DNA of 64,000 nt, from assembly GCF_014202225.1 (NCBI RefSeq), contig NZ_JACHGE010000007.1:87900-151899 (forward strand). Direction: 5' to 3'. Within the stretch, counting starts at the first letter, position 1; each line of letters begins with the position of its first letter. Below are positions 1-14,039 of the stretch, piece after piece. The DNA is from Algibacter amylolyticus. Lineage in GTDB: Bacteria > Bacteroidota > Bacteroidia > Flavobacteriales > Flavobacteriaceae. The notes beneath the pieces were generated by a model. The model was given only the letters and a program-made list of their open reading frames with translations, had not been told where the DNA came from and searched no databases. The translations under genes and the position numbers were made by a program.

Positions 1-1390
1 TACGACGCTCTGAATTGGTCATAGTTCCTTCCTTTTCCAACCAACCAGCTGCTGGTAAAACTAAATCGGCAAAACCTACGGTATCCGATTTATGAGATAT
101 TTCTTGAACCACAACAAACTTGGCGTTTTTCATGGCTTTTTCTACTCTATTTAAGTTTGGTAAGCTAACTAAAGGGTTTGTACAGGCAATCCAAACGGCT
201 TTTAATTTTCCGCTTTCCAAGGCATCGAACATTTCGGTAGCCGTTAATCCAGGTTTAGGGTTAATTTTATCGACTCCCCAAAACTCGGCAACCTCACGAC
301 GGTGTTCTGGATTTAGTAAATCTTTATGAACCGCTAATAAATTAGCCATACCTCCTACCTCGCGTCCGCCCATAGCATTAGGCTGTCCCGTTAAAGAAAA
401 AGGTCCTGCTCCAGGTTTTCCAATTTGCCCGGTAATTAACGACAAGTTAAGTAGTGACACATTTTTATCTGTACCCACAACACTTTGGTTAAGTCCCATG
501 GCCCACATACTTATAAAACCTTTGGATAGCCCTATAATATCTGCTGCTTTTCTAATATCTTTTTCTTCAACACCACATAATTTTGATGCTTGTTTTAAAG
601 ATGTTTTAAAAATTAATTCCTTGTAAGATTCAAATCCTTGTGTATGATTTTTTATAAAATCTTCATCAATTAAACCACGCTTATACAAACATCTTCCTAT
701 GGCGTTGTATAAAATAATATCCGTTCCGGGGAGTAATTGCAAATGTAAATCGGCAAAACTAGCCGTATCCGTTTTTCGTGGGTCTATTACAATAATTTTA
801 ACCTTTGGATTATCCTCTTTACGCTTTTCTATCCTTCTAAATAAAATAGGATGACACCAAGCAGGATTTGCTCCGGTAATTAAAAATGTATCTGCTAATT
901 CTATATCTTCATAAGAAATTGGAACACTATCTTCTCCAAATGTTTTTTTGTAACCAACCACTGCCGAACTCATACATAAACGTGAGTTTGTATCGATATT
1001 ATTGGTACCTATAAATCCCTTTGTAAGTTTATTTGCTATATAATATTCTTCTGTTAAACTCTGACCCGACACGTAAAAGCCTACGCTATCTGGACCATGC
1101 TTTTTTATAATCGATTTAAAAACGTTGGCAGCCCTATCTAATGCATCATCCCAACTTACACGCTCTCTTGGGTGCGAACGACTCCATCGCATTTCGGGAT
1201 ATAAAATTCTATCGGAAGTATCATTAGCAACATAATGCAAATTCATCCCTTTAGAACATAACATGCCTTTGTTTACGGGGTGATCTTTATCGCCTTCAAC
1301 AAACACCTTGTTATTGCTGTCTTTTTTTACAATAATCCCGCAACCAACACCACAATAAGAACACGTTGTTTTTACTTCGCTTTTAATCAT
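1..1390 (-). CDS. nasA: Assimilatory nitrate reductase catalytic subunit, molybdopterin type (partial, C-terminus beyond left edge)
   Basis: Reduces nitrate to nitrite in the cytoplasm with a molybdopterin guanine dinucleotide cofactor and one [4Fe-4S] cluster. I translated the minus strand from an ATG at 1390; about 463 codons lie in the window and no stop is reached. The N-terminus has the cluster motif CSYCGVGC followed by GMLCSKG, then the MGD-binding landmarks TGANPAWCHP, IDPRKTDTA and GQPNAMGGREVGG of the NasA/NarB branch. No signal peptide is present, which fits an assimilatory rather than periplasmic enzyme. It follows the nitrate transporter on the same strand with a 133-bp gap. The symbol is by family; related genes are also called nasC or narB. 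Confidence 0.93.
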   Translation of the reverse strand, partial: MIKSEVKTTCSYCGVGCGIIVKKDSNNKVFVEGDKDHPVNKGMLCSKGMNLHYVANDTSDRILYPEMRWSRSHPRERVSWDDALDRAANVFKSIIKKHGPDSVGFYVSGQSLTEEYYIANKLTKGFIGTNNIDTNSRLCMSSAVVGYKKTFGEDSVPISYEDIELADTFLITGANPAWCHPILFRRIEKRKEDNPKVKIIVIDPRKTDTASFADLHLQLLPGTDIILYNAIGRCLYKRGLIDEDFIKNHTQGFESYKELIFKTSLKQASKLCGVEEKDIRKAADIIGLSKGFISMWAMGLNQSVVGTDKNVSLLNLSLITGQIGKPGAGPFSLTGQPNAMGGREVGGMANLLAVHKDLLNPEHRREVAEFWGVDKINPKPGLTATEMFDALESGKLKAVWIACTNPLVSLPNLNRVEKAMKNAKFVVVQEISHKSDTVGFADLVLPAAGWLEKEGTMTNSERR

Positions 1391-1461
1391 AGAGACTTAC
1401 ATTTTACACTAATTAATGCATTTTACTTGCAGTAAACAAATGCACAACTCATTATTCTTAA

Positions 1462-1477
1462 TACCTTAAAAAAGGTA
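1462..1477. other. Short hairpin between the transporter and nitrate reductase
   Basis: A perfect 6-bp stem (TACCTT/AAGGTA) with an AAAA loop lies in the 133-bp gap between the narK-like gene and the nitrate reductase gene. It is too weak to be called a terminator with confidence. It may be a partial terminator or a processing site inside a shared transcript. Confidence 0.3.
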
Positions 1478-1523
1478 GTTATAATTTAAACTATATCAAA
1501 TATTATAGTATTAAAATAATTTT

Positions 1524-2942
1524 TTAACGAACAGGAATTAGATCCTTTTCGCTAACCGCAGTATCTATTTCGGCGACCTTTTCGTCTTCTGTTGAAAAAC
1601 GTATAGCTAAAGCAGAAATCGCTGTTACGACAACCACTATTCCAATAATAAAATAACCACTAGAAACTGCCGCCGATGAAGCTGCAGATTGTGCCGCTTG
1701 TATAGCTGCCTCACCCATACCTTGATTTGCTGCAATAGCTGCTTTTTCGGCCACTGCCGATTGCGATTTTAACAACATAGCCGCTAAAAATGCGCCCACA
1801 TTTCCTCCAGCTCCTACTATACCAGAAACAGAACCAATAGCCTTTTTATTAATAAACGGTACTACCGAAAACGTTGCGCCTTCGGCCATTTGAACCGACA
1901 AACTAAACAGTATTAAAAAACAAATACCTATCGCTATACTAGTTGTTCCAGAAAAAGTAATTAGCATAAAACCTTGAATGGCTAGAATAGCTGCTAAAAA
2001 AATAACACGACCTCGTAAGCCTTTTAATTTACCAAATCGATCTCCAAAGAAACCTCCAAGTGTTCTTGCAAAAATATTCATTAATGCGAAAGACAGTACA
2101 AGGTTTCCGGCAGTAACTCTTTCTAACTGAAAAGTGTTTTGCAGATAATCATCCATAGTACCATAAACAGTAAGCTCTATACCAAATGAGGCTGCATAAA
2201 CAAAAAACAAAATCCATGTTCTGTAATCTTTCAATACGGTTGCAAAACCTACTTGATCTTTTTTCTTTTCTATTTTAATTCCAGACTCTTTTAAATCTTT
2301 GAAATTACCTTGAGGTGTATCTTGTGTAAAAAAGTAATATACAATGCCCATTAGGAAACAAACCGCACCTGCAATAACCATAGAATATCTCCATGCCTCG
2401 CCTTCTGCAATACCAAAACTAACTACACCAGCAGCAATAATTGGCATACCTAATCGGTTGGCGCCACCACCAAGATTTCCCCAACCTGCCGACGTTGCAT
2501 TTGCAGTACCAACTATATTTGGAGCAAACATTAATGAGGTATGTACTTGAGTAATTACAAATGATGCTCCAATAAAACCAATAAATAAACGGCAAATTAA
2601 AAACTGCGTAGGTGTTTGGACTAATCCGCATAATATAACGGGAATAGCTCCTAACATAAGTAACCATGTATAACATAACCTAGGACCATATTTATCGCAT
2701 AATTTACCAATAAGTAAACGGGCAAATACAGTTCCTGAAACCGCAAGAATTATAGAGTTCCATTTCTGATCTGGCCTTAAACCAAGTTCTTTAACCACAT
2801 CTGGCATAAAAGGCACAATACCAAACCATGCAAAAAAGCATAAGAAAAATGATATAGCCGTTATCCAAAACGTACGTATAGAGACATTTTTTAAGTTGAA
2901 TAAATTTAATGTGGTTGATTTACTTTGTGTTGTAGCATCCAT
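1524..2942 (-). CDS. narK: Nitrate/nitrite transporter, MFS NNP family
   Basis: A 12-helix major facilitator that brings nitrate in and probably also moves nitrite. The 472-residue product has the MFS loop motif GKLCDKYGPR at 79-88 and the nitrate signature GWGNLGGG at 153-160. A second glycine-rich signature (GIVGAGGNVGAF) sits in the C-terminal half, as in NNP transporters. The N-terminal tail of about 20 residues is hydrophilic and cytoplasmic. It lies directly upstream of nitrate reductase on the same strand. Its upstream region carries the promoter block shared with nirB, so it is likely switched on with nitrite reductase. NarK and NasA are used for this family; the function as nitrate carrier is well supported. 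Confidence 0.93.
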   Translation of the reverse strand: MDATTQSKSTTLNLFNLKNVSIRTFWITAISFFLCFFAWFGIVPFMPDVVKELGLRPDQKWNSIILAVSGTVFARLLIGKLCDKYGPRLCYTWLLMLGAIPVILCGLVQTPTQFLICRLFIGFIGASFVITQVHTSLMFAPNIVGTANATSAGWGNLGGGANRLGMPIIAAGVVSFGIAEGEAWRYSMVIAGAVCFLMGIVYYFFTQDTPQGNFKDLKESGIKIEKKKDQVGFATVLKDYRTWILFFVYAASFGIELTVYGTMDDYLQNTFQLERVTAGNLVLSFALMNIFARTLGGFFGDRFGKLKGLRGRVIFLAAILAIQGFMLITFSGTTSIAIGICFLILFSLSVQMAEGATFSVVPFINKKAIGSVSGIVGAGGNVGAFLAAMLLKSQSAVAEKAAIAANQGMGEAAIQAAQSAASSAAVSSGYFIIGIVVVVTAISALAIRFSTEDEKVAEIDTAVSEKDLIPVR

Positions 2943-2961
2943 AATTAAGTAATTTATACGT

Positions 2962-2990
2962 ACAAAACTAAGTATATTTACTTAATTTAC
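2962..2990 (-). promoter_or_regulatory. Shared nitrate-regulon promoter block upstream of narK
   Basis: This 29-bp block matches the block upstream of nirB (10700-10728) at 28 of 29 positions. Read on the minus strand it contains the Bacteroidota -7 box TAGTTTTG (2963-2970), preceded by the dyad AAGTA-N4-TACTT (2970-2983). No TTG -33 box stands at the usual distance, so an activator is probably needed. It ends 20 bp upstream of the narK ATG. Confidence 0.6.
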
Positions 2991-3009
2991 TTAAATCATG
3001 AGTAAGTAA
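2987..3009. promoter_or_regulatory. Perfect dyad, candidate activator site for narK
   Basis: TTACTTA-N9-TAAGTAA, with perfect 7-bp arms. If transcription starts about six bases past the -7 box, the dyad is centred near -41, the usual place for a class II activator. Which protein binds is not shown by the sequence; the adjacent NarL-like regulator or a CRP/FNR-type protein are candidates. Confidence 0.45.
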
Positions 3010-3111
3010 TTAAAAAGAAATACGATATTAGTAATTATAGAATGTCAATTTTGATGAATCCCTAAAATGAAGAAATTAATTTATAAAATATTAAGAATAT
3101 GAAAATCTAGA

Positions 3112-3336
3112 TTATCCAAAAAGCGTAATTAAAGCGAAGATGTAAAATATAATAATTAATGCCCAGAGGCTAATATGAGCATTCCAAGAAGCAATATTAC
3201 TATTTTTAAAACTGATAGAATCCTTCTCATTTAGCTTCTAAATTAACAACAAACTCGCCAAAGCAAAACTGATTAAACTTGAATATAAAGGATAATCTTC
3301 AATAAAATGAATGATATAACTTTTAATTGAATCCAT
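3112..3336 (-). pseudogene. Small membrane-protein ORF interrupted by an in-frame amber codon
   Basis: Reading from an ATG at 3336 gives 32 codons ending in a hydrophobic stretch (SLISFALASLLLI). An in-frame TAG at 3238-3240 follows. The same frame then runs on for 41 more sense codons with a second hydrophobic helix (SLWALIIIFYIFALITLFG) before TAA at 3112-3114. The two halves look like one protein of about 74 residues with two membrane helices. I do not recognise the family. It is most simply a recent nonsense mutation; a sequencing error is also possible. A TACGTA palindrome lies 11 bp upstream of the ATG. It occupies most of the otherwise empty stretch between narK and the DUF748 gene. 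Confidence 0.4.
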
Positions 3337-3387
3337 GCATAACAATTACGTAGTAGCAAATAAAGTTTAAAGCACTGAGCTCTTGTA

Positions 3388-4479
3388 TTATTTTTTATTT
3401 TCGTCTACAAAGGCATCTTTAAACTCGATTTCATCGTCAATTCCCCCCTTAAAAGCTTTAATCCAAGCGTTACTAAAAATATTAATAACAGTAGGCCAAA
3501 CGCTGCCTTCTACGTTGTTTAAATCGCCCTCTAGTGGAATTTTAGTAGCAATAGTATTTGTGCTTTGATTTTTAAGAATAAATTTAAAAAAGCCTACTAA
3601 ACCTTCCCATAGTACTTCTAAAAATTCATCATTTTTACCTATAAGTTTACTATTTTCTAGTAGCGGTTTCATATACCCCTTTAAATGACCGTCTGCAATA
3701 GCTATCTCGCTAAACAACTCGAAATTTCCAGATTCAAAGTCTATACCTGCATAATGACTTGTAAAATCATTAAGGGCTTTTACATTTGCTTTTTCTAAGG
3801 CAAACGATACGTCCATATCTGGTATTTGCTTTACTAAATTTATTTGGCCATCTAAAGTCATTTTGCCACCGCCAATGGAAACTCCTGTCGCATGAATTGG
3901 AGATGGTAAGGTTCTGTTTTTTTCTACAACATTTCGTAAGTTGGTTGCTGTAAGCTCTACATCATCAAAATCTAAATCGATATTTGGGTCTGTTCCTAGC
4001 TCAACATAAGCAATTTTACCTTTATGAATAGTAAATTTATTAATATCAATAGGTACAATTTCGGTTAAAGCTTTAGTCCAATCATCGACACTCACATCTG
4101 CATCTGTAGCATTTTGATCTTCAATTACATAAATCACTTCGGGATTATGCATGACAATTTCACTAACTATTTTGCCCTTAAATAACGAGCGCCATTCAAT
4201 AGAAATATCACTTTTAGGGAAATTTAAAAACTGAACTTCTGTTTTAGCTTTTAACTTATTTAAATACATACCATCAATAACGTATGCTCCTCGATACAAT
4301 GCAATATCTACATCCTTCACTTCACCGTAATATCCTGGTATATCCGCCAAGGTGTTGTTAATTTGATTTTTAACAAACGTAGGCAGATAAAACCTAAGCA
4401 CAACCAAAAGCCCTAACACTATAAGAGGAATAGTTAAACGCTTCTTTTTATAAGTTTTCCGATTTTTTGGGGTTTCCAT
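3388..4479 (-). CDS. DUF748 / AsmA-like envelope protein
   Basis: A protein of about 363 residues with a basic N-terminus, one membrane helix (about residues 12-30, LTIPLIVLGLLVVLRFYLP) and a long beta-rich part resembling DUF748 and AsmA-type proteins. Those families span or bridge the envelope and are linked to lipid transport or outer-membrane upkeep. I chose the ATG at 4479; a TTG two codons further upstream is also open. It follows the NarL-like regulator on the same strand with a 92-bp gap, so it may be read through from it. Nothing in the sequence ties it to nitrate chemistry; the link is positional only. Confidence 0.7.
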   Translation of the reverse strand: METPKNRKTYKKKRLTIPLIVLGLLVVLRFYLPTFVKNQINNTLADIPGYYGEVKDVDIALYRGAYVIDGMYLNKLKAKTEVQFLNFPKSDISIEWRSLFKGKIVSEIVMHNPEVIYVIEDQNATDADVSVDDWTKALTEIVPIDINKFTIHKGKIAYVELGTDPNIDLDFDDVELTATNLRNVVEKNRTLPSPIHATGVSIGGGKMTLDGQINLVKQIPDMDVSFALEKANVKALNDFTSHYAGIDFESGNFELFSEIAIADGHLKGYMKPLLENSKLIGKNDEFLEVLWEGLVGFFKFILKNQSTNTIATKIPLEGDLNNVEGSVWPTVINIFSNAWIKAFKGGIDDEIEFKDAFVDENKK

Positions 4480-4571
4480 TCGCAACTAATTTTTAAACAA
4501 AGAAACGTTTTAAAGCGCTATTTTCGTAGTCCTATCCGTATAAGTATTAACGCAATTGCGAGATATATAAC

Positions 4572-5237
4572 TTAAGCTAAACCAAACTCTTTAGCTTTAT
4601 TATTAAGTTCCATTAAATTTTTAACCTCCAATTTTTTCATGAGATTAAAACGATGCACCTCGGCAGTTCGCTTACTAATTTTAAGCTCCTCGGCTATATC
4701 TTTATTATTTTTAAGCTGAAGCACTAAATTTAGTATTTGCTTTTCGCGTTTAGTAAGTTTAAAAGGATCTTCCTTTACCTCTTTCTTAGTAGCAACCGCT
4801 GCATTTGTGTTACCGTTTACGAAGTTATTCATAATAATAGAAGACACATCGCCAGTAAAATATTTTCCCCCAGAGGCTACGCTATTTACGGCTTTTAAAA
4901 ACTCTTCCTTACTAGCTCCTTTTAATAAATACCCATCGGCCCCAGCTTGAATTGCTTTTACTACGTATTCTTCTGAATCGTGCATAGAAAGCACCAAAGT
5001 GCGCACATCGGTATACAATTTGTTAATCTCTCCTACAGCCTCTATACCATTCATTTCGGGCATACGAATATCTATAATCAATACATCCGGTTTGTTTTTG
5101 GCAACAACATCTAAAGCTTCTTTTCCGTTTGAAGCCTCATCAATTACAACAATTCCTGTTTGATCCTCTAAAAGCGCTTTAATACCATCTCTTACTAAAA
5201 CATGGTCGTCTGCTAATACTACATTAATTACATCCAT
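4572..5237 (-). CDS. NarL/LuxR-family response regulator
   Basis: A DNA-binding response regulator of 221 residues. The receiver domain has the acidic pair D10-D11 and phospho-acceptor D56 (IIDIRMPEMNG). The C-terminal LuxR-type helix-turn-helix spans about 155-205 (LTKREKQILNLVLQ... ISKRTAEVHRFNLMKKL). It sits next to a NarX-like sensor kinase in a nitrate locus, so control of nitrate uptake and reduction genes is the natural inference. It has its own candidate promoter (box at 5257-5264) with two TACGTATA direct repeats, which suggests autoregulation. The exact target sites are not proven. Confidence 0.9.
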   Translation of the reverse strand: MDVINVVLADDHVLVRDGIKALLEDQTGIVVIDEASNGKEALDVVAKNKPDVLIIDIRMPEMNGIEAVGEINKLYTDVRTLVLSMHDSEEYVVKAIQAGADGYLLKGASKEEFLKAVNSVASGGKYFTGDVSSIIMNNFVNGNTNAAVATKKEVKEDPFKLTKREKQILNLVLQLKNNKDIAEELKISKRTAEVHRFNLMKKLEVKNLMELNNKAKEFGLA

Positions 5238-5256
5238 AAACTTAAATATGATAGTC

Positions 5257-5289
5257 CAAAAATACGTATATAAAAGAAAACTACGTATA
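5257..5289 (-). promoter_or_regulatory. Promoter and TACGTATA direct repeats upstream of the NarL-like gene
   Basis: On the minus strand a -7 box TATTTTTG lies at 5257-5264, 19 bp before the ATG. Two copies of TACGTATA (5263-5270 and 5282-5289) are spaced 19 bp apart, about two helical turns, with the first overlapping the -7 box. This arrangement suggests cooperative binding and self-control, by inference. Confidence 0.45.
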
Positions 5290-5327
5290 CATTTTTTAAG
5301 AATTGCTTCTATAATACTTACTTACTC

Positions 5328-7148
5328 TTAAATATCCTCTAAAGGAATATTAAGAGTCACTCGAGTGCCTTGTCCTGCGCCCGAGGTTACAAAAATGCGT
5401 CCGTTAATATATTTAATTCGCTCTTTCATAAAAGTCATTCCCATGCCGCCATCGCCCATTTTTACATGCTTAACATTATCTGGATCGAAACCTTTACCGT
5501 TATCGTCAATAACAATACTTAACATGCTTTCGCTATGCGATAAAGACACCAAAATATGCGTAGATTCGGCATATTTAATAGCATTATTAATAGCTTCTTG
5601 AGTAATTCTATAAATATTTATTTCGGTAAGCGAATCTAGTCTCTTATTAAAATCTGTTTTATTAAAAAGAATAATATCCTTACCCGTTAATCTGGTTAAC
5701 TCTTGCGTTAACTTAGTAATTGCTGGCACAATACCATGGTCTGATAATTCTGGAGGCGTTAAATTAAAAGTTGCCGTTCTAACCCCTTTTATAATGTTAG
5801 TTGTTAACTCCTTTAAATATTCAATTTTAACGCTTGCTTTTTCAATATCTTTGGTATCAATACTTTCTAGGTTATATTTTAAACCGGTAAGCATTTGCCC
5901 TATACCATCGTGTACATCTTTAGCAATACGACTTTGCTCCTTTTCTTGGTTTTCAATAATCTTACTAGAAATTATTTTTTGCTGACTCATACGTTCTTCA
6001 AAACGTTGCGTATTAAGTCTACTTATTTCTAATTGAGCTAATTTACGCTCTGTAATTTCTGAAGCTATAATTAATATTTCAGATTTCTCATTTGTAGGAT
6101 TGTATGGAATAATAGCCATTTCGAGCCAAATAACATCCTTAGTTTTGGTTGTTGCTTTTACTTCGCCTTGCCAACCCGTTTTTTTATACTTACTAATTAG
6201 ATCTTCTATTATAACTTGTTCATTTTCTTCGGTAGACAATACCTTCCAGAACATGATAGAATTATTAAATTTTGAAAATTTAAATAATCTAGAAAACTTA
6301 TTTCCTAAATGAACAATACTTCCATTGGGTAAAATACGAGCAAACAATAGCGTGTCTTCCATAACACGACTTAAGGCGCGCAATTCTTTAATAGATTTTT
6401 CTTTGGCAAGACTGAGCTCATCGGCATCGAAAGCCATTTTTTTAGCACGCTTTTCGGCAAGTAATAAATCGGCTAAAACAGATTTTACAGATTTTGCTGC
6501 CGGCCAAAATATGAATAAAAACTCGGCTAAAAGTATTAATAAGGTTAATGCTGTTAACCAAAATTCTAGTTGCCTTAACCGGTCTACTTTAGCGTTAGCC
6601 TCAAGATCATATTGATTTACAATATCATCCATGATACTTAAAAAGGTAGCTTCGTACGCCTTAACTTTTTCTACATCCTGTTTATAATTCTCATTGGAAA
6701 AGTCTGGAAATAGCTCAATTATATTAATAATAGATTGTGAAGCCGTACTTATCGAATCGAAAATAGGATTTAACCGCTTAAACTTCTCATTAATGTTTTC
6801 GCTATTGTTATTTGGTAACCCTAAACTATCATTACCTTTTTGAAGTGCATGATGAGATAATGACCAAAGATGTAGTGTTTCTTTGATTTTTTCCTTTAGA
6901 AGAATACGATTACTTGTATTAGTTTCTACTGATATTGAGAGGACATCTTTAGTGAGTTTCTGACTTAACATACGTTGGCGACCAGCAACATTTATTACGG
7001 TAGAATCGCTTTCCTGATCGCTTAAATGTGTACGTATTAAAACCTGACTTAAAACCACCGATATAGCGATGGTAAATAAGGCAATAATGTATAAACGGCG
7101 TAATTTATCAAACGTTCTTTGGTCTAATGAATTACTTGATTTAATCAT
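5328..7148 (-). CDS. NarX-like nitrate/nitrite sensor histidine kinase (PilJ-type sensor, PAS, HisKA_3)
   Basis: A 606-residue membrane sensor kinase. Helices at about 19-38 and 197-215 bracket a periplasmic domain that begins with NVAGRQRMLSQKL (53-65), the PilJ/NarX P-box type motif that binds nitrate or nitrite. A PAS-like domain (about 255-370) follows, then a short coiled coil. HisKA_3 has the phospho-acceptor H413 in AKDVHDGIGQML, and the HATPase domain has DNGKGFDPDN and GGMGMTFMKERI. HisKA_3 kinases pair with NarL-type regulators, and the regulator is the next gene downstream, 90 bp on. It is 9 bp downstream of the DUF4202 gene, so it belongs to the nirBD operon: the sensor is made along with the enzyme it should control. 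Confidence 0.9.
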   Translation of the reverse strand: MIKSSNSLDQRTFDKLRRLYIIALFTIAISVVLSQVLIRTHLSDQESDSTVINVAGRQRMLSQKLTKDVLSISVETNTSNRILLKEKIKETLHLWSLSHHALQKGNDSLGLPNNNSENINEKFKRLNPIFDSISTASQSIINIIELFPDFSNENYKQDVEKVKAYEATFLSIMDDIVNQYDLEANAKVDRLRQLEFWLTALTLLILLAEFLFIFWPAAKSVKSVLADLLLAEKRAKKMAFDADELSLAKEKSIKELRALSRVMEDTLLFARILPNGSIVHLGNKFSRLFKFSKFNNSIMFWKVLSTEENEQVIIEDLISKYKKTGWQGEVKATTKTKDVIWLEMAIIPYNPTNEKSEILIIASEITERKLAQLEISRLNTQRFEERMSQQKIISSKIIENQEKEQSRIAKDVHDGIGQMLTGLKYNLESIDTKDIEKASVKIEYLKELTTNIIKGVRTATFNLTPPELSDHGIVPAITKLTQELTRLTGKDIILFNKTDFNKRLDSLTEINIYRITQEAINNAIKYAESTHILVSLSHSESMLSIVIDDNGKGFDPDNVKHVKMGDGGMGMTFMKERIKYINGRIFVTSGAGQGTRVTLNIPLEDI

Positions 7149-7157
7149 ACGTATGGT

Positions 7158-7742
7158 TTAAGAAATAGCCTGTTTTACTAAGGCTAAACTTTTTTCAGAA
7201 AAAGGTAAACCTAAAGCAGCTTCATGACCCTTATCGGACATTTTTACCCAGGTTTTTTTAAGAATATCAATTATTTTTTCGTCGCTATGCTTAGCTGCAA
7301 ATTCCTCAAAATAATAATCTAGAAACACCAAACAAATGGTATCCTCTAAGGTTTGAGATTCTTCGTTTTTCTTAATTAATTTTTTAAGAATTATAGCTTT
7401 AACCCTATCGCAAAATTGTTCATCAAAACCCACTTGTATTAAAATATCGACAGTTAAATCGGCATGCATTTTCTTTAAGGTTTCACGCCATTTCAAATAA
7501 CCCACACGATCCATTGGATATTCGTCTCTACCAATTTTCCAACGACAAATATGTTGTGCGCGTGCAGCGATTTGTAATGCTTTGGATGCATTAGGCTCAA
7601 ACTGCAATAACTTCCTTGTCATACGTTGCGAATACAACAGTTCCTTTGGGTAACTCATACCTGCAACTTCGTAGGTATTAATATCTTCGGAGTTTGCTTT
7701 ATCGATTAAAGCAATGGCAGTTTCAAATCTGGTAGGCTTCAT
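7158..7742 (-). CDS. DUF4202 protein, nitrite-reductase-associated
   Basis: A soluble protein of about 194 residues that matches the DUF4202 family by its N-terminal RFETAIALIDKANSED motif and the central AARAQHICRWKIGRDEYPMDR. The family is mostly alpha-helical, has conserved histidines and arginines reminiscent of HD-fold proteins, and has no agreed function. I use the ATG at 7742 because homologues begin near here; a TTG eight codons upstream is also open. It sits between nirD (24-bp gap) and the sensor kinase (9-bp gap), inside the nitrite reductase operon. A role in nitrite reduction, siroheme supply or signalling is possible but not shown. Confidence 0.8.
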   Translation of the reverse strand: MKPTRFETAIALIDKANSEDINTYEVAGMSYPKELLYSQRMTRKLLQFEPNASKALQIAARAQHICRWKIGRDEYPMDRVGYLKWRETLKKMHADLTVDILIQVGFDEQFCDRVKAIILKKLIKKNEESQTLEDTICLVFLDYYFEEFAAKHSDEKIIDILKKTWVKMSDKGHEAALGLPFSEKSLALVKQAIS

Positions 7743-7766
7743 ATTTTGTGTGTTTTGGTCTATCAA

Positions 7767-8144
7767 TTATTCTGAAAAGCCAATATACACATTTTCTTCT
7801 TCAATTTTAACAGGATAAATCGCAATAGGCTCCAATTCTCCATTTAAATTTTCTCCTGTTTCCAAAGAAAATGTTTTTTTATGCAACGGGCAAGCTACCA
7901 TAGGAATTCCCTTATGATCACCTATCATACCTCTACTTAACACCATTTCCTCTTTATAAGGCGATAGGTTTTGGCAAGCATACCATGTACTTAATCTGCT
8001 AAAGTTAAAGACTGCTATTTGTAAATCTTTATACTTAACACAGGCACCTCCATCCTTTGGAAAGTCATTAATATGTGCTGCTTTAAACCAAATCTTTACC
8101 TCGTCGTTTTTTACTGTTTTGTACTTACTAGCGATTGTATTCAT
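7767..8144 (-). CDS. nirD: Nitrite reductase small subunit, Rieske-like domain
   Basis: Small partner of the NADH-dependent assimilatory nitrite reductase, 125 residues from the ATG at 8144. An upstream TTG at 8177 would overlap nirB and is less likely. The Rieske_2 fold is clear (VLSRGMIGD, ACPLHKKTF, ETGENL). Of the four usual [2Fe-2S] ligands, C57, C85 and H88 remain, but the first histidine is replaced by N59 (CQN). A cluster is therefore doubtful; many NirD proteins have lost theirs. It is 23 bp downstream of nirB and almost certainly co-transcribed with it. Confidence 0.92.
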   Translation of the reverse strand: MNTIASKYKTVKNDEVKIWFKAAHINDFPKDGGACVKYKDLQIAVFNFSRLSTWYACQNLSPYKEEMVLSRGMIGDHKGIPMVACPLHKKTFSLETGENLNGELEPIAIYPVKIEEENVYIGFSE

Positions 8145-8167
8145 ATGATATAAATTTTTGATATTAA

Positions 8168-10684
8168 TTATTTCCAAGGCTCTGGCATTTTTTGCTCTCT
8201 TAAAGGCACAAACACTAAATTATCATCTTCATCTTCAGTGTTAACAAAATGATTAAAACGCTTCATCATTTCTGGATCATTGACCGCTTGAGTCCATTCG
8301 CACTCAAATTTATTTACTAATGATTGCATTTCGTTTTCTAAATCTTCAACAATACCCAATTTATCGTCAATAATTACCTCTTTTAAGTAATCTAAACCGC
8401 CTTCTAATCGCTCTTGCCATGCGGCAGTACGCTGTAAAGGTTTTGCTGTTCGCATATAAAACATCAAGTAACGATCAATATATTTAATCACAGTTTCGTT
8501 ATCAATTTGTTCTGCAAATAATTCGGCATGTCGTGGTGTAGCTCCACCATTTCCACCTAGATATAAATTCCAACCACCTTCAACGGCAATTAAACCAAAA
8601 TCTTTTCCTCTAGCTTCTGCACACTCACGAATACACCCTGAAACACCACCTTTAATTTTATGTGGCGCACGAATACCACGGTATCGATTTTCTAGCTCGA
8701 TACCAAAGCTTACACTTTCGGCCATACCATAGCGACACCATGTTGAGCCAACACAGGTTTTTACAGTACGTAACGATTTTCCGTAGGCATGCCCACTTTC
8801 AAACCCATGGCTTATTAAATCTTTCCAAATTAGTGGTAATTGTTTTAAGGTTGCACCGAATAAATCGATACGCACACCACCAGTAACTTTGGTATATAAA
8901 TCGTATTTTTTAGCAATTTCTCCAAGTGCAATTAACTTATCGGGCGTGATTTCGCCACCTGGAACACGCGGTACAACAGAATAGGTGCCGTTACGTTGAA
9001 TATTTGCCATAAACCTATCGTTAGAATCTTGAATAGCATATTCCTTATTGGCAGTATCTGCATTAATAGAGGCCATTAATGAAGCAACAAGTGGCTTACA
9101 TAATTCGCAACCATGACCTCCCGTGCCATGATTATCCAGCACCTCGTTAAACGTGGTATAGCCTTTTACTTGTATAATTTTATATAAATCTTGTCTGCTT
9201 AGTTCGAAATGTTCGCAAACGCCTTCTTTAACTTCAATACCCAAAGCTTTAAGTGTAGCATTAGTTAAATCGGCAACCATTGGTTTACAGCCACCGCAAC
9301 CTGTACCTGCTTTAGTACAACTTACTACGCCTGCAATATCTGTGGCTTCACCATTTTCGATAGCTGAACAAATTTGTCCTTTAGTTACGCTCTCGCAAGA
9401 ACATACCTGAGCCTCATCTGGCAAATCGGTTACATCTCCAAAGGAAGACGCACCATCGCTTGCCGGTAATATCAATTGAGATGGGTCTTCCGGAATAGCC
9501 ATACCGTTTAAATATATTTGATGCAACATGTTGTAAGTAGAAGCATCTCCAACAAGAATCCCGCCTAATAATTTTTTACCATCGTGACTCACATTGATAC
9601 GTTTATACAAATGCTGAGTTTTGTTTTCAAAAATTATAGAATGCCCTTTTGATGCCGGCATAAATGGTTCACCAAAACTAGCAACATCAACACCAATTAA
9701 TTTTAGTTTGGTAGACATATCGATATCTGCAGGCATAATTACCTCTGCCTTACCAATAATTTGATCTACCGCTACCCCAGCCATATCGTAACCTGGAGCA
9801 ACCAAACCATAAATCATTTGATTATATAGAGCAATCTCGCCTATGGCAAAAATGTTTTCATCGGAAGTTTGCATTTTATTATCTACCACAATACCACCAC
9901 GAACACCAACTTCGAGTCCGCAGTTTTTCCCTAGCTCATCTCTTGGACGAATACCTGCTGAAACAATTAGCATATCAACATCTAACACATCGTCTTCACC
10001 AAACTCTAAGCCTACAATAGAACCATTACCTAAAATTTGATTGGTAGCCTTACTTAAATGAATATTTAACCCAATAGATTCTAGTTTTAGCTGTAAAACT
10101 TGACTACTTCGTAAATCTAATTGCCTTGGCATTAATTTAGATGCAAACTCGACAATATGTGGTTCTAAACCCATATCCATAACAGCCTTACCAGCCTCCA
10201 AACCTAATAGACCGCCACCAAGAACAGCAGCTTTAGCATTGGGGTTTTTAGCTTTAAGTTTTGCGGCATAAGCTAACATACCTTCTAAATCTTCTATGGT
10301 TCTATACACAAAAACACCTTCCTTTTCAACACCTTTAATTGGAGGTACAAAAGGTGAAGACCCTGTAGCTAAAACTAAATAATCATAAGAAAACTCACGA
10401 TCTTTAGCAGTTTTTATAGTTTTATCTTTTCTTGAAATATCTGAAACACGTTCTCCAGTAATTAAGTCAATATTATTATCGGCGTACCATTCTGCCGGAG
10501 CCATTTCTAGAGCTTTAGCATCTTGGTTTTCGAAAAACTCACTTAAATGAACCCTATCATAAGCAGGTCTTGGCTCTTCACCAAAAACCGTTATTTTAAA
10601 ATCTTTAAACTCGGTTTTTTGTACAAATTTTTCACAAAACTTGTAACCAACCATTCCATTTCCAACAACAATAATATGTTTCAT
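8168..10684 (-). CDS. nirB: Nitrite reductase [NAD(P)H] large subunit
   Basis: Catalyses six-electron reduction of nitrite to ammonium in the cytoplasm. The 838-residue chain shows, in order: FAD-binding GNGMVGYKF (8-16), NAD(P)-binding VLGGGLLGLEAG (154-165), a BFD-type [2Fe-2S] site with C428, C430, C463 and C466, a second BFD-like segment (HGCELC) near 524-529, the nitrite/sulfite reductase ferredoxin-like part, and the siroheme/[4Fe-4S] ligands C644, C650, C684 and C688 (TCVGSTWC, GCIRECAE). Length and domain order match complete NirB. It heads the operon nirB-nirD-DUF4202-sensor kinase. Its promoter block is shared with narK. Confidence 0.97.
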   Translation of the reverse strand: MKHIIVVGNGMVGYKFCEKFVQKTEFKDFKITVFGEEPRPAYDRVHLSEFFENQDAKALEMAPAEWYADNNIDLITGERVSDISRKDKTIKTAKDREFSYDYLVLATGSSPFVPPIKGVEKEGVFVYRTIEDLEGMLAYAAKLKAKNPNAKAAVLGGGLLGLEAGKAVMDMGLEPHIVEFASKLMPRQLDLRSSQVLQLKLESIGLNIHLSKATNQILGNGSIVGLEFGEDDVLDVDMLIVSAGIRPRDELGKNCGLEVGVRGGIVVDNKMQTSDENIFAIGEIALYNQMIYGLVAPGYDMAGVAVDQIIGKAEVIMPADIDMSTKLKLIGVDVASFGEPFMPASKGHSIIFENKTQHLYKRINVSHDGKKLLGGILVGDASTYNMLHQIYLNGMAIPEDPSQLILPASDGASSFGDVTDLPDEAQVCSCESVTKGQICSAIENGEATDIAGVVSCTKAGTGCGGCKPMVADLTNATLKALGIEVKEGVCEHFELSRQDLYKIIQVKGYTTFNEVLDNHGTGGHGCELCKPLVASLMASINADTANKEYAIQDSNDRFMANIQRNGTYSVVPRVPGGEITPDKLIALGEIAKKYDLYTKVTGGVRIDLFGATLKQLPLIWKDLISHGFESGHAYGKSLRTVKTCVGSTWCRYGMAESVSFGIELENRYRGIRAPHKIKGGVSGCIRECAEARGKDFGLIAVEGGWNLYLGGNGGATPRHAELFAEQIDNETVIKYIDRYLMFYMRTAKPLQRTAAWQERLEGGLDYLKEVIIDDKLGIVEDLENEMQSLVNKFECEWTQAVNDPEMMKRFNHFVNTEDEDDNLVFVPLREQKMPEPWK

Positions 10685-10699
10685 AATTACGTATTTGAA

Positions 10700-10731
10700 A
10701 CAAAACTAAGTATTTTTACTTAATTTACGTA
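10700..10731 (-). promoter_or_regulatory. Shared nitrate-regulon promoter block upstream of nirB
   Basis: Positions 10700-10728 repeat the narK block with one base change. On the minus strand it reads as the -7 box TAGTTTTG (10701-10708) preceded by the dyad AAGTA-N4-TACTT (10708-10721). TACGTA palindromes lie at 10726-10731 and, in the leader, at 10688-10693. No -33 TTG is visible at the normal spacing, as for narK. Confidence 0.6.
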
Positions 10732-10839
10732 GTCGAAATTAAAAAACTACTTAAAAAACACGTAATATTATTGATTTCTCAAATTGAAATACTAATAATT
10801 GATTTTTAGAAAAATTATGAAGTTGATTTTGCTGAAATC

Positions 10840-13134
10840 TTAAACTTTTGTGATAGTTACCCTAACACTCTTAGAAGCCGGTGTTTTAGCAGTATGAGCA
10901 AAACTATCCAACGGCACCAACACATTTGTTTCAGGAAAATAAGTCGCACAACAGTTTTTAGGAATATCGTAACCAACTACTTTAAATTGATTAGCCTCTC
11001 GTATAACACCATTATATTCAGACTTAATATTTACAACCTGATGCTCATCAAAACTACGTAGTTTCATATCGTCTCGATTCATAAAAACAATTCGTCTTTC
11101 GTTAAAAACACCTCTGTAACGATCGTTTAATCCATAAATAGTAGTATTAAATTGATCGTGACTACGTATTGTCATCATTATTAACTCCCCGTCCTTTAAT
11201 TTCCAATTAGGAAGTTTATTTGATGTAAAATTGGCTTTCCCCGTTTTCGTTTTAAAAGATCTTACTCGTGCACCATTAGGTAAATAGAAACCTGAAGGCT
11301 GTTTTAGTTTTTTATTATAATCTTCGAACCCAGAAACAACCTCAGCAATATCATCACGAACTAAATTATAATCATCCTTGTAGGCTAGCCAATTAATTTT
11401 AGAGCGGTCTTTTAAAGTTGCATGAGCTATACCACAAACTACGGCAACTTCACTTAATAAATCATCAGAACAAGGTTCTAAAATACCTTTTGTTGAAGAC
11501 ACAACACCCATAGAATTTTCGACACTTTGTGTTTGTACTCCAGATTTTTGATAATCCTTTTCTGCACGACCTAAACACGGAAATATTAAAGCTTCTTGCC
11601 CAGTAACTAAATGCGAACGATTTAGTTTTGTACTCACATGAACCGTTAAATTACAATTGGCTAAAGCCTGTGCAGAATACTTAGTATCTGGTACCGCAGA
11701 GATAAAATTTCCGCCCATACCGAAAAACACTTTTACTTTGCCCTCGTACATCGCTTTTATAGATTCTATAACACTATAACCATGCTTAACTGAAGGCTTA
11801 AAACCATATTTATCTTCAATCTTGTCTAAAAACGCTTGCGGTGCAGCTTCCCAAATACCAACTGTTCTATCGCCTTGAACATTAGAGTGTCCACGAACGG
11901 GACAAGTGCCGGCGCCTTCTATACCAATACTACCTTTAAGTAATAATAAATTAACAAGCTCTCGAATATTATCGACGGCATTTTCATGCTGTGTTAGGCC
12001 CATGGCCCAACAGATAATAATTTTATCGTTATTCAGGATTAAATCAAAAGCCTCATTAAAAGTTTCAAAAGTAACTCCTGAAGCCTCCAAACAAGTTTCA
12101 AAATTATAGGTTTTTAAATCTGAAATAAAATCGTTGTATCCCGAAGTAAATTCATTAATAAAAGCTTTATCAAAAACACCGCCTTGAGCCTCCTCTTTTT
12201 CTAGTAATTTTAACAACAAAGCTTTAAAGAAAGCCACATCTCCATTAATGGTTATTGGCACAAACACATCTGAAAGTTTAGTACCTCCAGTAAGCATTTT
12301 TATTGGGTTTTGAGGATCTGTAAATTTTATTAAACCGGCTTCTGGCAAAGGATTTACTGCTATAATTTTACCTCCGTTTTTTTTAGTTTTTTCTAGAGCA
12401 GATAACATTCTTGGATGGTTGGTTGCTGGATTTTGTCCAATTACCATAACTACTTCTGCTTTATATAAATCATCTAAAGTAACGGAGCCTTTACCAATAC
12501 CTAAAGTTTCGGAGAGCGCACTTCCACTTGCCTCGTGACACATATTAGAACAATCTGGCAAATTAGAAGTCCCGTATTCTCTAACAAATAATTGATATAA
12601 AAAAGCAGCTTCATTAGTTGTTCTACCAGAAGTATAAAACGCGGCTTCATCCGGATTATCTAAAGCATTTAAATGTTCTGCTATTTTATTAAAAGCATCA
12701 TCCCAAGAAATAGGTTGATAATGAGATGCTCCTTTGGGCAGATACATGGGTTCTGACAAACGACCTGATTTTCCTATTTCAAAATCTGATAAACTCGCTA
12801 AATCATCAACGGCATTTTGTGCAAAAAACTCACGGTTAATAAGTTTGTTCTGCATTTCTTCAGCCATAGCTTTTAAACCATTTTCGCAGTATTCACCAAT
12901 TGCAGAACGATCGTCGTCTGGATCTGGCCACGCGCAACCTGGGCAATCAAAACCACCTTTTTGATTCATTTTTAACGATACCTTTAAAGCATCTAATGGT
13001 TTCATGTATTTGTTAGCATGACCCAAAGAAGCTTTCAATGCTCCAAAACCCACACTATTAGTTGGCGGCGTTTTAGTTTTTAAATTCTCGAATTTTTCGG
13101 GTGTTAAGGCTTTTTCTATTGGTGATTTACTCAT
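10840..13134 (-). CDS. FdhF/YdeP-family molybdopterin oxidoreductase
   Basis: A cytoplasmic molybdopterin oxidoreductase of 764 residues. The N-terminus carries a cysteine cluster (C64, C67, C83: FDCPGCAWPDPDD then EYC), followed by the DEAAFYTSGRTTNEAAFLYQ and CHEASGSALSETLGIGKGSV segments typical of the YdeP/CbbBc branch. MGD-binding motifs VMVIGQNPATNHPR and CPVRGHSNVQGDRT are present. YdeP-type proteins are called formate dehydrogenase-like, but their substrate is unknown (acid resistance in E. coli). No FdhD or partner subunit is adjacent. It lies upstream of nirB on the same strand with a 155-bp gap that contains the nirB promoter, so it is a separate unit. Confidence 0.87.
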   Translation of the reverse strand: MSKSPIEKALTPEKFENLKTKTPPTNSVGFGALKASLGHANKYMKPLDALKVSLKMNQKGGFDCPGCAWPDPDDDRSAIGEYCENGLKAMAEEMQNKLINREFFAQNAVDDLASLSDFEIGKSGRLSEPMYLPKGASHYQPISWDDAFNKIAEHLNALDNPDEAAFYTSGRTTNEAAFLYQLFVREYGTSNLPDCSNMCHEASGSALSETLGIGKGSVTLDDLYKAEVVMVIGQNPATNHPRMLSALEKTKKNGGKIIAVNPLPEAGLIKFTDPQNPIKMLTGGTKLSDVFVPITINGDVAFFKALLLKLLEKEEAQGGVFDKAFINEFTSGYNDFISDLKTYNFETCLEASGVTFETFNEAFDLILNNDKIIICWAMGLTQHENAVDNIRELVNLLLLKGSIGIEGAGTCPVRGHSNVQGDRTVGIWEAAPQAFLDKIEDKYGFKPSVKHGYSVIESIKAMYEGKVKVFFGMGGNFISAVPDTKYSAQALANCNLTVHVSTKLNRSHLVTGQEALIFPCLGRAEKDYQKSGVQTQSVENSMGVVSSTKGILEPCSDDLLSEVAVVCGIAHATLKDRSKINWLAYKDDYNLVRDDIAEVVSGFEDYNKKLKQPSGFYLPNGARVRSFKTKTGKANFTSNKLPNWKLKDGELIMMTIRSHDQFNTTIYGLNDRYRGVFNERRIVFMNRDDMKLRSFDEHQVVNIKSEYNGVIREANQFKVVGYDIPKNCCATYFPETNVLVPLDSFAHTAKTPASKSVRVTITKV

Positions 13135-13259
13135 TAAATTTCAATTATTTGAATGGGAACTCTTTTAAATCAAATTTACAATATAATCGTCGTTTAGGTT
13201 ATAATCTTCGAATAGCAAATGGTTTTTTTAATAACAATTATGATTAAAAACTAAAACAA

Positions 13260-14039
13260 TTAATTATCTAACCTTGCCTGTTGCTTGCAAAAACAATCTT
13301 CCATCATTTTATAAAGCTCCGGATGCTTTCGTTTAAATAATTTAGGACGTTCAAAAAAATACTCGGAGGCTACGGCAAAAAATTCTTCTTGATTTGTACC
13401 GCCATAATTTCTAATATCTGATGCGTTATTATTTATAGCCTCCATTTTGTCGTGCATAAGCTTTAACCAAGGTATAGCGTAGGCACTGGATAATAAAAGT
13501 TTAGGAATACCATCTACATCGCCATCCAATTTATCTATAAGATGCACAAACTCATGGATTGCCGTATTTCCTTTATCTGTTTTATTATTAAACCCTAATC
13601 GCAATGCTTTTCTAGATAATATCATCTGGTTTTTAAAACGTCCTGTACCAACTAAGCCAGCAATATTTCTATTTTCGCCTTCAAAATTATAATCGGCATT
13701 AAAATGATCTGGATAAATAAGCACCGTTGTTAAATTTGTGTAGCTCCAATTATCGAAACAAAAAACGGGAATAACGGCACTTGCGGCAACTAAAACCACA
13801 TCCAATTCTTCTAATTGAAACTTAACAGATTCTACATGCGTTTCCGATAAAAAACGTGCCATTTTGGATCTAAAAAGCGCTTGTTCTTTACTTAATTCTA
13901 GATTTTTATAAAACAATACATGACTTAACAAAAGCTTATGCCATGTATCTGGAATTTTATAAATCTTCTTGGGTTTACTGTTTTTGTAATGATAGATTCC
14001 ATACAACAGCAAAGTAATTACTACTATAACTAATACCAT
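13260..14039 (-). CDS. MtfA-like zinc peptidase (M90 family)
   Basis: A 259-residue zinc-dependent peptidase resembling MtfA (peptidase family M90). One N-terminal membrane helix (residues 1-16) is followed by the catalytic domain with HEFVH at 162-166 and a downstream third-ligand region NQEEFFAVASEYFFE. E. coli MtfA acts on the C-terminus of the Mlc repressor; the target here is unknown. Its start lies only 3 bp after the stop of the molybdopterin subunit gene, so the two are one transcript. That linkage to a molybdoenzyme is unusual for MtfA. Confidence 0.85.
   Translation of the reverse strand: MVLVIVVITLLLYGIYHYKNSKPKKIYKIPDTWHKLLLSHVLFYKNLELSKEQALFRSKMARFLSETHVESVKFQLEELDVVLVAASAVIPVFCFDNWSYTNLTTVLIYPDHFNADYNFEGENRNIAGLVGTGRFKNQMILSRKALRLGFNNKTDKGNTAIHEFVHLIDKLDGDVDGIPKLLLSSAYAIPWLKLMHDKMEAINNNASDIRNYGGTNQEEFFAVASEYFFERPKLFKRKHPELYKMMEDCFCKQQARLDN

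Follow-up and report, generated by a model that had tools for sequence, protein, structure and literature searches.

On the minus strand of the 64-kb stretch of the Algibacter amylolyticus genome analysed here (the window), nirB, nirD, a DUF4202 gene, a sensor kinase gene, the gene of a NarL-like response regulator, a DUF748 gene, narK, and nasA follow one another in this order (Table 1). The order nirB, nirD, DUF4202, kinase is repeated in most of the relatives' loci fetched, and a relative of the kinase is encoded in 79 of 80 nirB loci (the best 80 of 211), the exception (L097) being a 3.9-kb contig. Among 60 relatives, the closest genome by NirB is G002 (97%). The DUF4202 gene (window 7158-7766) lies between nirD and the gene of the proposed nitrate sensor kinase and accounts for 81 ORFs in the window and the best 80 of 211 loci. 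In the window and in G002, the regulator gene and narK are separated by the DUF748 gene (window 3388-4485), which did not turn up in the remaining neighbourhood loci compared. The nasA product of 1173 aa carries a NirB-like reductase domain behind its nitrate reductase part (L183 5769-9290, reaching window 1-1390).

The periplasmic domain of the kinase is of the PilJ type according to Pfam, and no HAMP, GAF, or PAS domain was detected in the protein at E 0.001. Searched as a profile, the domain hits McpN (6gcv) at 7.3e-8, and NarQ reaches no better than E 0.58. McpN is described as binding nitrate via R61 (PMC6381276); the arginine aligned with this residue, R59 of the kinase, is invariant (13/13). 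The closest solved protein to the regulator is E. coli NarL (1a04, 1.2e-33), and both partners score far below the curated equivalog cut-offs for the E. coli proteins (NarL 148 bits vs. 250, NarX 60 vs. 578, NarQ 81 vs. 553). Such Bacteroidetes kinases have been grouped in a review, which labels the genes narHK and narRR (PMC8199190). They share with the pair described here the nitrate-type sensor domain, the response regulator, and the adjoining nitrate genes, and they are described as lacking HAMP and GAF-like domains. The review's account of them names proteins and gene order, with no operator or regulon, and gives PAS domains in Flavobacteriales members, whereas none reached the above E value here (PMC8199190).

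Table 1. Coordinates of the promoter elements and genes discussed (window numbering)
Feature	Position	Strand	Remark
narK operator, inverted repeat TAAGTA-N4-TACTTA, 16 bp	2969..2984	-	kept ahead of narK in relatives
narK -7 box TAGTTTTG, bases common with operator	2963..2970	-	predicted start near 2958, by analogy; box rule from PMC9723704
narK upstream half-sites 2988-2993 and 3003-3008, 9 and 24 bp upstream of core	2988..3008	-	3003-3008 corresponds to a half-site that relatives keep at -22 to -24
narK half-sites 2957-2962 and 2946-2951, over predicted start and leader	2946..2962	-	
nirB operator, inverted repeat TAAGTA-N4-TACTTA, 16 bp	10707..10722	-	kept ahead of nirB in relatives
nirB -7 box TAGTTTTG	10701..10708	-	predicted start near 10696; same box rule as narK (PMC9723704)
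nirB upstream half-sites 10726-10731, 10748-10753, 10759-10764 (last with one mismatch)	10726..10764	-	
nirB half-site TACGTA in predicted leader	10688..10693	-	
NarL-like regulator promoter: -7-like TATTTTTG (5257-5264), half-sites 5263-5268 and 5282-5287	5257..5287	-	strict dyad absent in the window's genome
NarL-like response regulator (narRR), proposed binder	4572..5237	-	
PilJ/HisKA_3 sensor kinase (narHK), proposed nitrate sensor	5328..7148	-	
narK, NarK-family transporter, target gene	1524..2942	-	
nasA, after narK	from 1390 downward	-	
nirB, nitrite reductase large subunit, target gene	8168..10684	-	

The promoter block of narK and nirB

The blocks ahead of narK (window 2962-2990, ACAAAACTAAGTATATTTACTTAATTTAC) and nirB (window 10700-10728, ACAAAACTAAGTATTTTTACTTAATTTAC) share 28 of 29 bases, one position differing, as an earlier note on this DNA had observed. 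At up to three mismatches, the block occurs at these two places only in the whole genome (4,351,189 bases in 25 contigs; 0 for the reversed-pattern control). The minus-strand -7 box and the dyad AAGTA-N4-TACTT, which the same note had read in both blocks, are indeed present, the dyad at 2970-2983 and 10708-10721. The further dyad claimed for narK is real (arms 2987-2993 and 3003-3009), but it is better described as two more half-sites upstream of the core, and an array of half-sites is present at nirB as well. Six half-sites were counted at narK (2946-3008) and six, one of them with a mismatch, at nirB (10688-10764). Within the 64 kb, A[AC]GTA-N4-TAC[GT]T occurs only at these two genes. No match to a known RNA family was found in window 1-14000 (Rfam). 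Farther upstream of nirB (window about 10767-10795), an A/T-rich conserved block resembling CAATTTGAGAAATTGATAATAAT is present in many relatives and is a possible site for a second factor; the conserved block upstream of narK differs from it.

In 39 loci with the dyad at both genes, the number of bases that the narK and nirB blocks have in common varies from 16 to 28 of 29, with a median of 23, and the only two cases of 28/29 are the window's genome and A. pectinivorans. The match in the window thus stands at the upper end of this spread, and constraint falls on the dyad with the -7 box. How far the match extends is in part fortuitous, while its core is selected. Aligned upstream regions show A[AC]GTA-N4-TAC[GT]TA preceded by A/T-rich bases and joined to a -7 box TAnnTTTG. 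The conserved unit, the 16-bp form TA[AC]GTA-N4-TAC[GT]TA with this box, is smaller and more widespread than the block of 29 bases.

The proposed operator in relatives and across genomes

The occurrence of A[AC]GTA-N4-TAC[GT]T was counted in intergenic stretches of 40-250 bases from the window and the best 80 of 211 loci, with genes assigned by BLAST at 40% identity and other ORFs taken at a length of at least 150 aa; one of the 81 sources yielded no nirB upstream stretch. The motif precedes nirB in 76 of 80 cases, narK in 40 of 43, narL in 36 of 56, and nasA in 17 of 37, compared with nirD (0/30), DUF4202 (0/81), fdhF (1/20), the kinase (0/5), and DUF748 (0/3). The strict dyad is missing at narL in 20/56 and at nasA in 20/37 cases, and in the latter narK often precedes nasA. 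Among other genes, 55 of 409 carry the dyad, including 20 NrtA-like and 18 CobA-like ones (the labels CobA-like, isocitrate dehydrogenase-like, and MobA-like were read from the sequences, without family searches); several of the remaining dyads face a nitrate promoter from its far side. In the same loci, spacers of 3, 5, and 6 were found at nirB in 2, 4, and 2 of 80 stretches, and everted and reversed forms in none, so the spacer of 4 is specific there. The corresponding numbers at narK are 0, 5, and 11 of 43, with 4 everted and 0 reversed; the 11 cases with a spacer of 6 and the 4 everted ones are attributed to half-sites in the narK leader and upstream.

In the genome of the window, the bare 5-4-5 dyad AAGTA-N4-TACTT is unspecific (30 places, 23 for the reversed control) and was rejected as a genome-wide marker, whereas the 16-bp form is specific, with 7 places against 2. 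These 7 places comprise narK, nirB, two copies 24 and 187 bp in front of the start of an nrtA-like gene, two overlapping copies in front of a gene for an FNR-like member of the Crp family, which neighbours molybdopterin-type genes, and a single copy 259 bp ahead of a gene read as isocitrate dehydrogenase. The dyad with the -7 box, at one mismatch, gave 5 places, fewer than the 12 of the control: narK, nirB, the promoter of the FNR-like gene, the copy upstream of the isocitrate dehydrogenase-like gene, and a place at C13.

Ten fully listed genomes (G000, G001, G002, G003, G004, G006, G007, G008, G009, and G026) contain 75 places of the 16-bp form against 19 for the reversed control. As assigned by hand from coordinates, with overlapping copies counted singly (two such pairs at nirB, in G003 and G008, and two at the FNR-like gene, in G000 and G002), 54 of the 75 lie ahead of nirB, narK, nasA, narL, nrtA, the FNR-like gene, or a globin gene, all at most 210 bp from the start, and the other 21 lie elsewhere, close to the control count. 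G325, also fully listed and outside these numbers, has 5 places: nirB, narK, a MobA/CobA-like pair, an Alginate_exp porin, and one inside an ORF. Altogether, 17 kinase-bearing genomes contain 112 places against 37 in the control, and 13 genomes with nirB but without the orthologous kinase contain 24 against 21, with G348 (7 vs. 0) and G444 (5 vs. 1) among the latter. These counts support the proposal of the earlier note that the block belongs to a nitrate regulon, and speak against a mark of unrelated genes. A wide spread ahead of genes unrelated to nitrogen is not seen for the 16-bp form; it is the bare dyad that would give such a picture.

Three of the additional genes deserve a short description. 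The FNR-like gene (L181 6252-7001; G000:C7:49254-50000 region) encodes an N-terminal CxxCx4C motif, has overlapping operator copies, and stands beside nrtA and the molybdopterin-type genes. The globin gene has an operator just upstream and is followed by flavin reductase-like and other genes (L236 2021-2434 in G006; L232 229-645 in G026), possibly for protection from nitrogen oxides. The copy at the isocitrate dehydrogenase-like gene, some 260 bp upstream of it, occurs in the sisters G000 (L182 about 4145-4160) and G002 (L246 1577) and may be due to chance.

Promoter geometry and phasing of half-sites

Promoters of F. psychrophilum have their TAnnTTTG box at -12 to -5 (PMC9723704). Applied here, this rule would place the dyad over -25 to -12, with its centre at -18.5, provided that transcription starts likewise. 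A perfect -7 box is joined to the dyad at one fixed place in 64 of 76 nirB, 32 of 40 narK, and 13 of 17 nasA promoters, and the right half of the operator shares its last two bases with the box. At narL, the dyad mostly lies 8-10 bp further up (30/37), with the nirB-like place in 5/37, and at nrtA it lies downstream of a TAnnTTTG box in 18 of 20 promoters, as counted by eye. TAnnTTTG is the -7 box of promoters of the Bacteroidota primary sigma factor, but here a half-site of the regulator would share bases with the box.

The half-sites are not limited to the dyad. Extra half-sites of nirB start at -59 in 27 of 66 promoters, and up to 40 of these 66 have one that starts between +4 and +6; those of narK and nasA start at -50 to -48, with further narK half-sites at -4 and +8; relative to the predicted starts, the downstream ones cover about -4 to +13. 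Distances between half-sites cluster near 10, 20-24, 30-34, and 43. For 165 offsets, with identical patterns taken once per gene, R amounts to 0.53 at a period of 11 and 0.49 at a period of 10.5, and the 99.9% level of R for 2000 random placements, with periods scanned, is 0.25, a control in which relatedness is not wholly removed. The half-sites are thus phased by 10.5-11 bp and lie on the same face of the helix.

Candidate binders and direction of regulation

Among 38 genomes with nirB, the dyad lies within 200 bp of this gene in 23 of the 25 that encode an orthologous NarX-like kinase and in none of the 13 others (Fisher 1.9e-8). The dyad goes with the adjacent NarX/NarL-like pair, whose NarL-like member the earlier note had put forward as a candidate for binding. 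G348 and G444, with partial kinase matches (34-36%), were counted as lacking the kinase; otherwise the split is 23/27 vs. 0/11. The two exceptions with the kinase and without the dyad, G265 and G418, have 4 and 6 TACGTA hexamers in the 200 bp at nirB. The 13 genomes lacking the kinase all come from other families, so common descent partly confounds this co-occurrence. Kinase-bearing genomes from other families are G325, G265, and G418, and of these G325 has the dyad and no close FNR-like relative. The recognition helix RTxExHR[FY]xxM is present in all 20 regulators compared, which come from 20 of the 25 kinase genomes. Three diverged regulators (39-42%) encoded beside operator-free nirB have the helix NTVANQRASII or RTVDNHRANMM; the comparison that covers them took in 19 of 20 matches, the twentieth being the window's own genome. 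In three more distant genomes (L162, L171, L172), a diverged NarX/NarL-like pair (regulator 39-42%) is encoded beside nirBD without the operator, and such a pair should use another site.

Other explanations of the block have to be weighed against a binding site of the adjacent regulator. The FNR-like Crp-family protein encoded beside nrtA could be the binder: a 5-4-5 palindrome is usual for the FNR/Crp family, the promoter of its own gene carries overlapping operator copies, the protein accompanies nitrate genes in relatives, and the dyad is present in every one of the 18 genomes whose relative reaches 50% identity. However, 5 of the other 20 genomes (G010, G020, G033, G052, and G325) lack a relative this close and still carry the nirB dyad, and G151, G215, and G245, which encode relatives of 44-45% and lack the orthologous kinase, do not have it. 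The half-site differs as well, as FNR recognises TTGAT and the 14-bp palindromes here are built of AMGTA. The FNR-like protein fits the distribution less well than the kinase does and was rejected as the main binder, a role we consider improbable; since its gene belongs to the regulon, it may be a second binder. Recent duplication or gene conversion between the two promoters, without a common regulator, would explain why identity is highest in the window's genome and A. pectinivorans, but the same dyad with the box recurs at many loci with differing flanks, the dyad is also found at nrtA, narL, nasA, and cobA, and the median identity elsewhere is lower. A simple duplication of the block was rejected on the range of identities in the 39 loci, and this origin seems very unlikely. 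Least probable of all is that the block is just a strong housekeeping core promoter of Bacteroidota; it does contain a perfect -7 box, but only two copies exist in the genome, and the 16-bp form stays near the control level outside nitrate-associated genes.

The motif, its conservation, the gene set, the phasing, and the co-occurrence with the kinase together point to the block being a conserved operator of a nitrate regulon in marine flavobacteria, most probably that of the adjacent sensor-regulator pair. We hold this reading with good confidence, which applies to the operator and the regulon and not to the sign of regulation. We infer that the adjacent regulator binds the block, that nitrate is the signal, and that transcription starts as placed here. 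The operator would be an inverted repeat of the half-site TAC[GT]TA fused to the core promoter of the target genes. Binding of nitrate by the PilJ domain would set the state of the kinase, and the kinase that of the NarL-like regulator, which would occupy the half-site arrays at nirB, narK-nasA, nrtA, its own gene, cobA, and a few accessory genes.

The earlier note had taken the promoters to be activator-dependent as they lack a TTG at -33. The absence is true of narK and nirB in the window, and among all dyad promoters compared the element is present in 5/64 of nirB, 0/32 of narK, and 0/13 of nasA, but it carries no information: other genes with TAnnTTTG have it in 13 of 87 cases, against 11 of 87 after one shuffle per upstream stretch, and the argument was rejected. 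The -33 motif of F. johnsoniae is also described as weak (PMC6847099). A dyad predicted near -18.5 and half-sites over the predicted start suit occlusion better than activation. Occlusion, in which the regulator and open polymerase would exclude each other and the genes would stay off until nitrate changes the regulator, is favoured by the overlap with the -7 box, the half-sites over the predicted start and leader, the downstream dyad at nrtA, and the perfect -7 boxes. Repressors usually sit over positions such as -25 to -12 and about -4 to +13.

The same operator and regulator could also work in the opposite sense, with the phosphorylated protein in the spacer and the upstream half-sites aiding polymerase when nitrate is present. 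Induction by nitrate is the expected logic for nitrate use, the dyad keeps its one place relative to the box at nirB, narK, and nasA, and the upstream half-sites, starting near -59 or -49, are at the usual distances for activators. The core dyad nevertheless overlaps the -7 box, half-sites cover the predicted start and leader, the nrtA dyad lies on the downstream side, and the absent -33 element is uninformative. Activation from the spacer is the geometry of MerR-type proteins and is not known for any response regulator. E. coli NarL activates narG with nitrate (PMC4549865), which speaks for the activator. Such activation appears possible rather than probable, and both modes together, or another sign, unlikely. 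The direction of regulation thus leans weakly to occlusion, which we find only just probable. It is fairly probable that a LuxR-type nitrate response regulator acts inside the Bacteroidota core promoter through a half-site that shares bases of the -7 box and recurs in phase from about -60 to +13, either as a nitrate-relieved repressor or as an activator from the spacer.

The comparison with known systems shows both likeness and difference. E. coli NarL also acts through more than one site at a promoter: it represses frdA by binding at -4/+6 and activates narG by binding at -89 and -195 (PMC4549865). Its operator consists of 7-2-7 inverted heptamers with TAC at the outer ends, TACCCCTAAAGGGGTA (PMC4549865). 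The operator described here is of another form, A[AC]GTA-N4-TAC[GT]T, in which the two TAC elements point away from the centre across a 4-bp spacer. The 14-bp layout agrees with that of FNR/Crp operators and of the staphylococcal NreC site, also 5-4-5, whose partner kinase NreB senses oxygen. NreC likewise recognises a palindromic sequence upstream of nar and nir genes, but its site is GC-rich, unlike the operator here (PMC8139620). No description of this operator was found in open-licence PMC papers, which is weak evidence of absence, and neither a flavobacterial nitrate operator nor a nitrate transcriptome was found among them.

A nitrate-relieved repressor, if true, would be the reverse of E. 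coli NarL at genes for nitrate use. For marine flavobacteria, genes of nitrate use can now be listed together with a concrete operator and a candidate regulator, and the operator motif offers a signature by which regulons of this kind may be annotated from sequence. A question that arises is how a response regulator may act on Bacteroidota polymerase from a site that shares bases of the -7 box.
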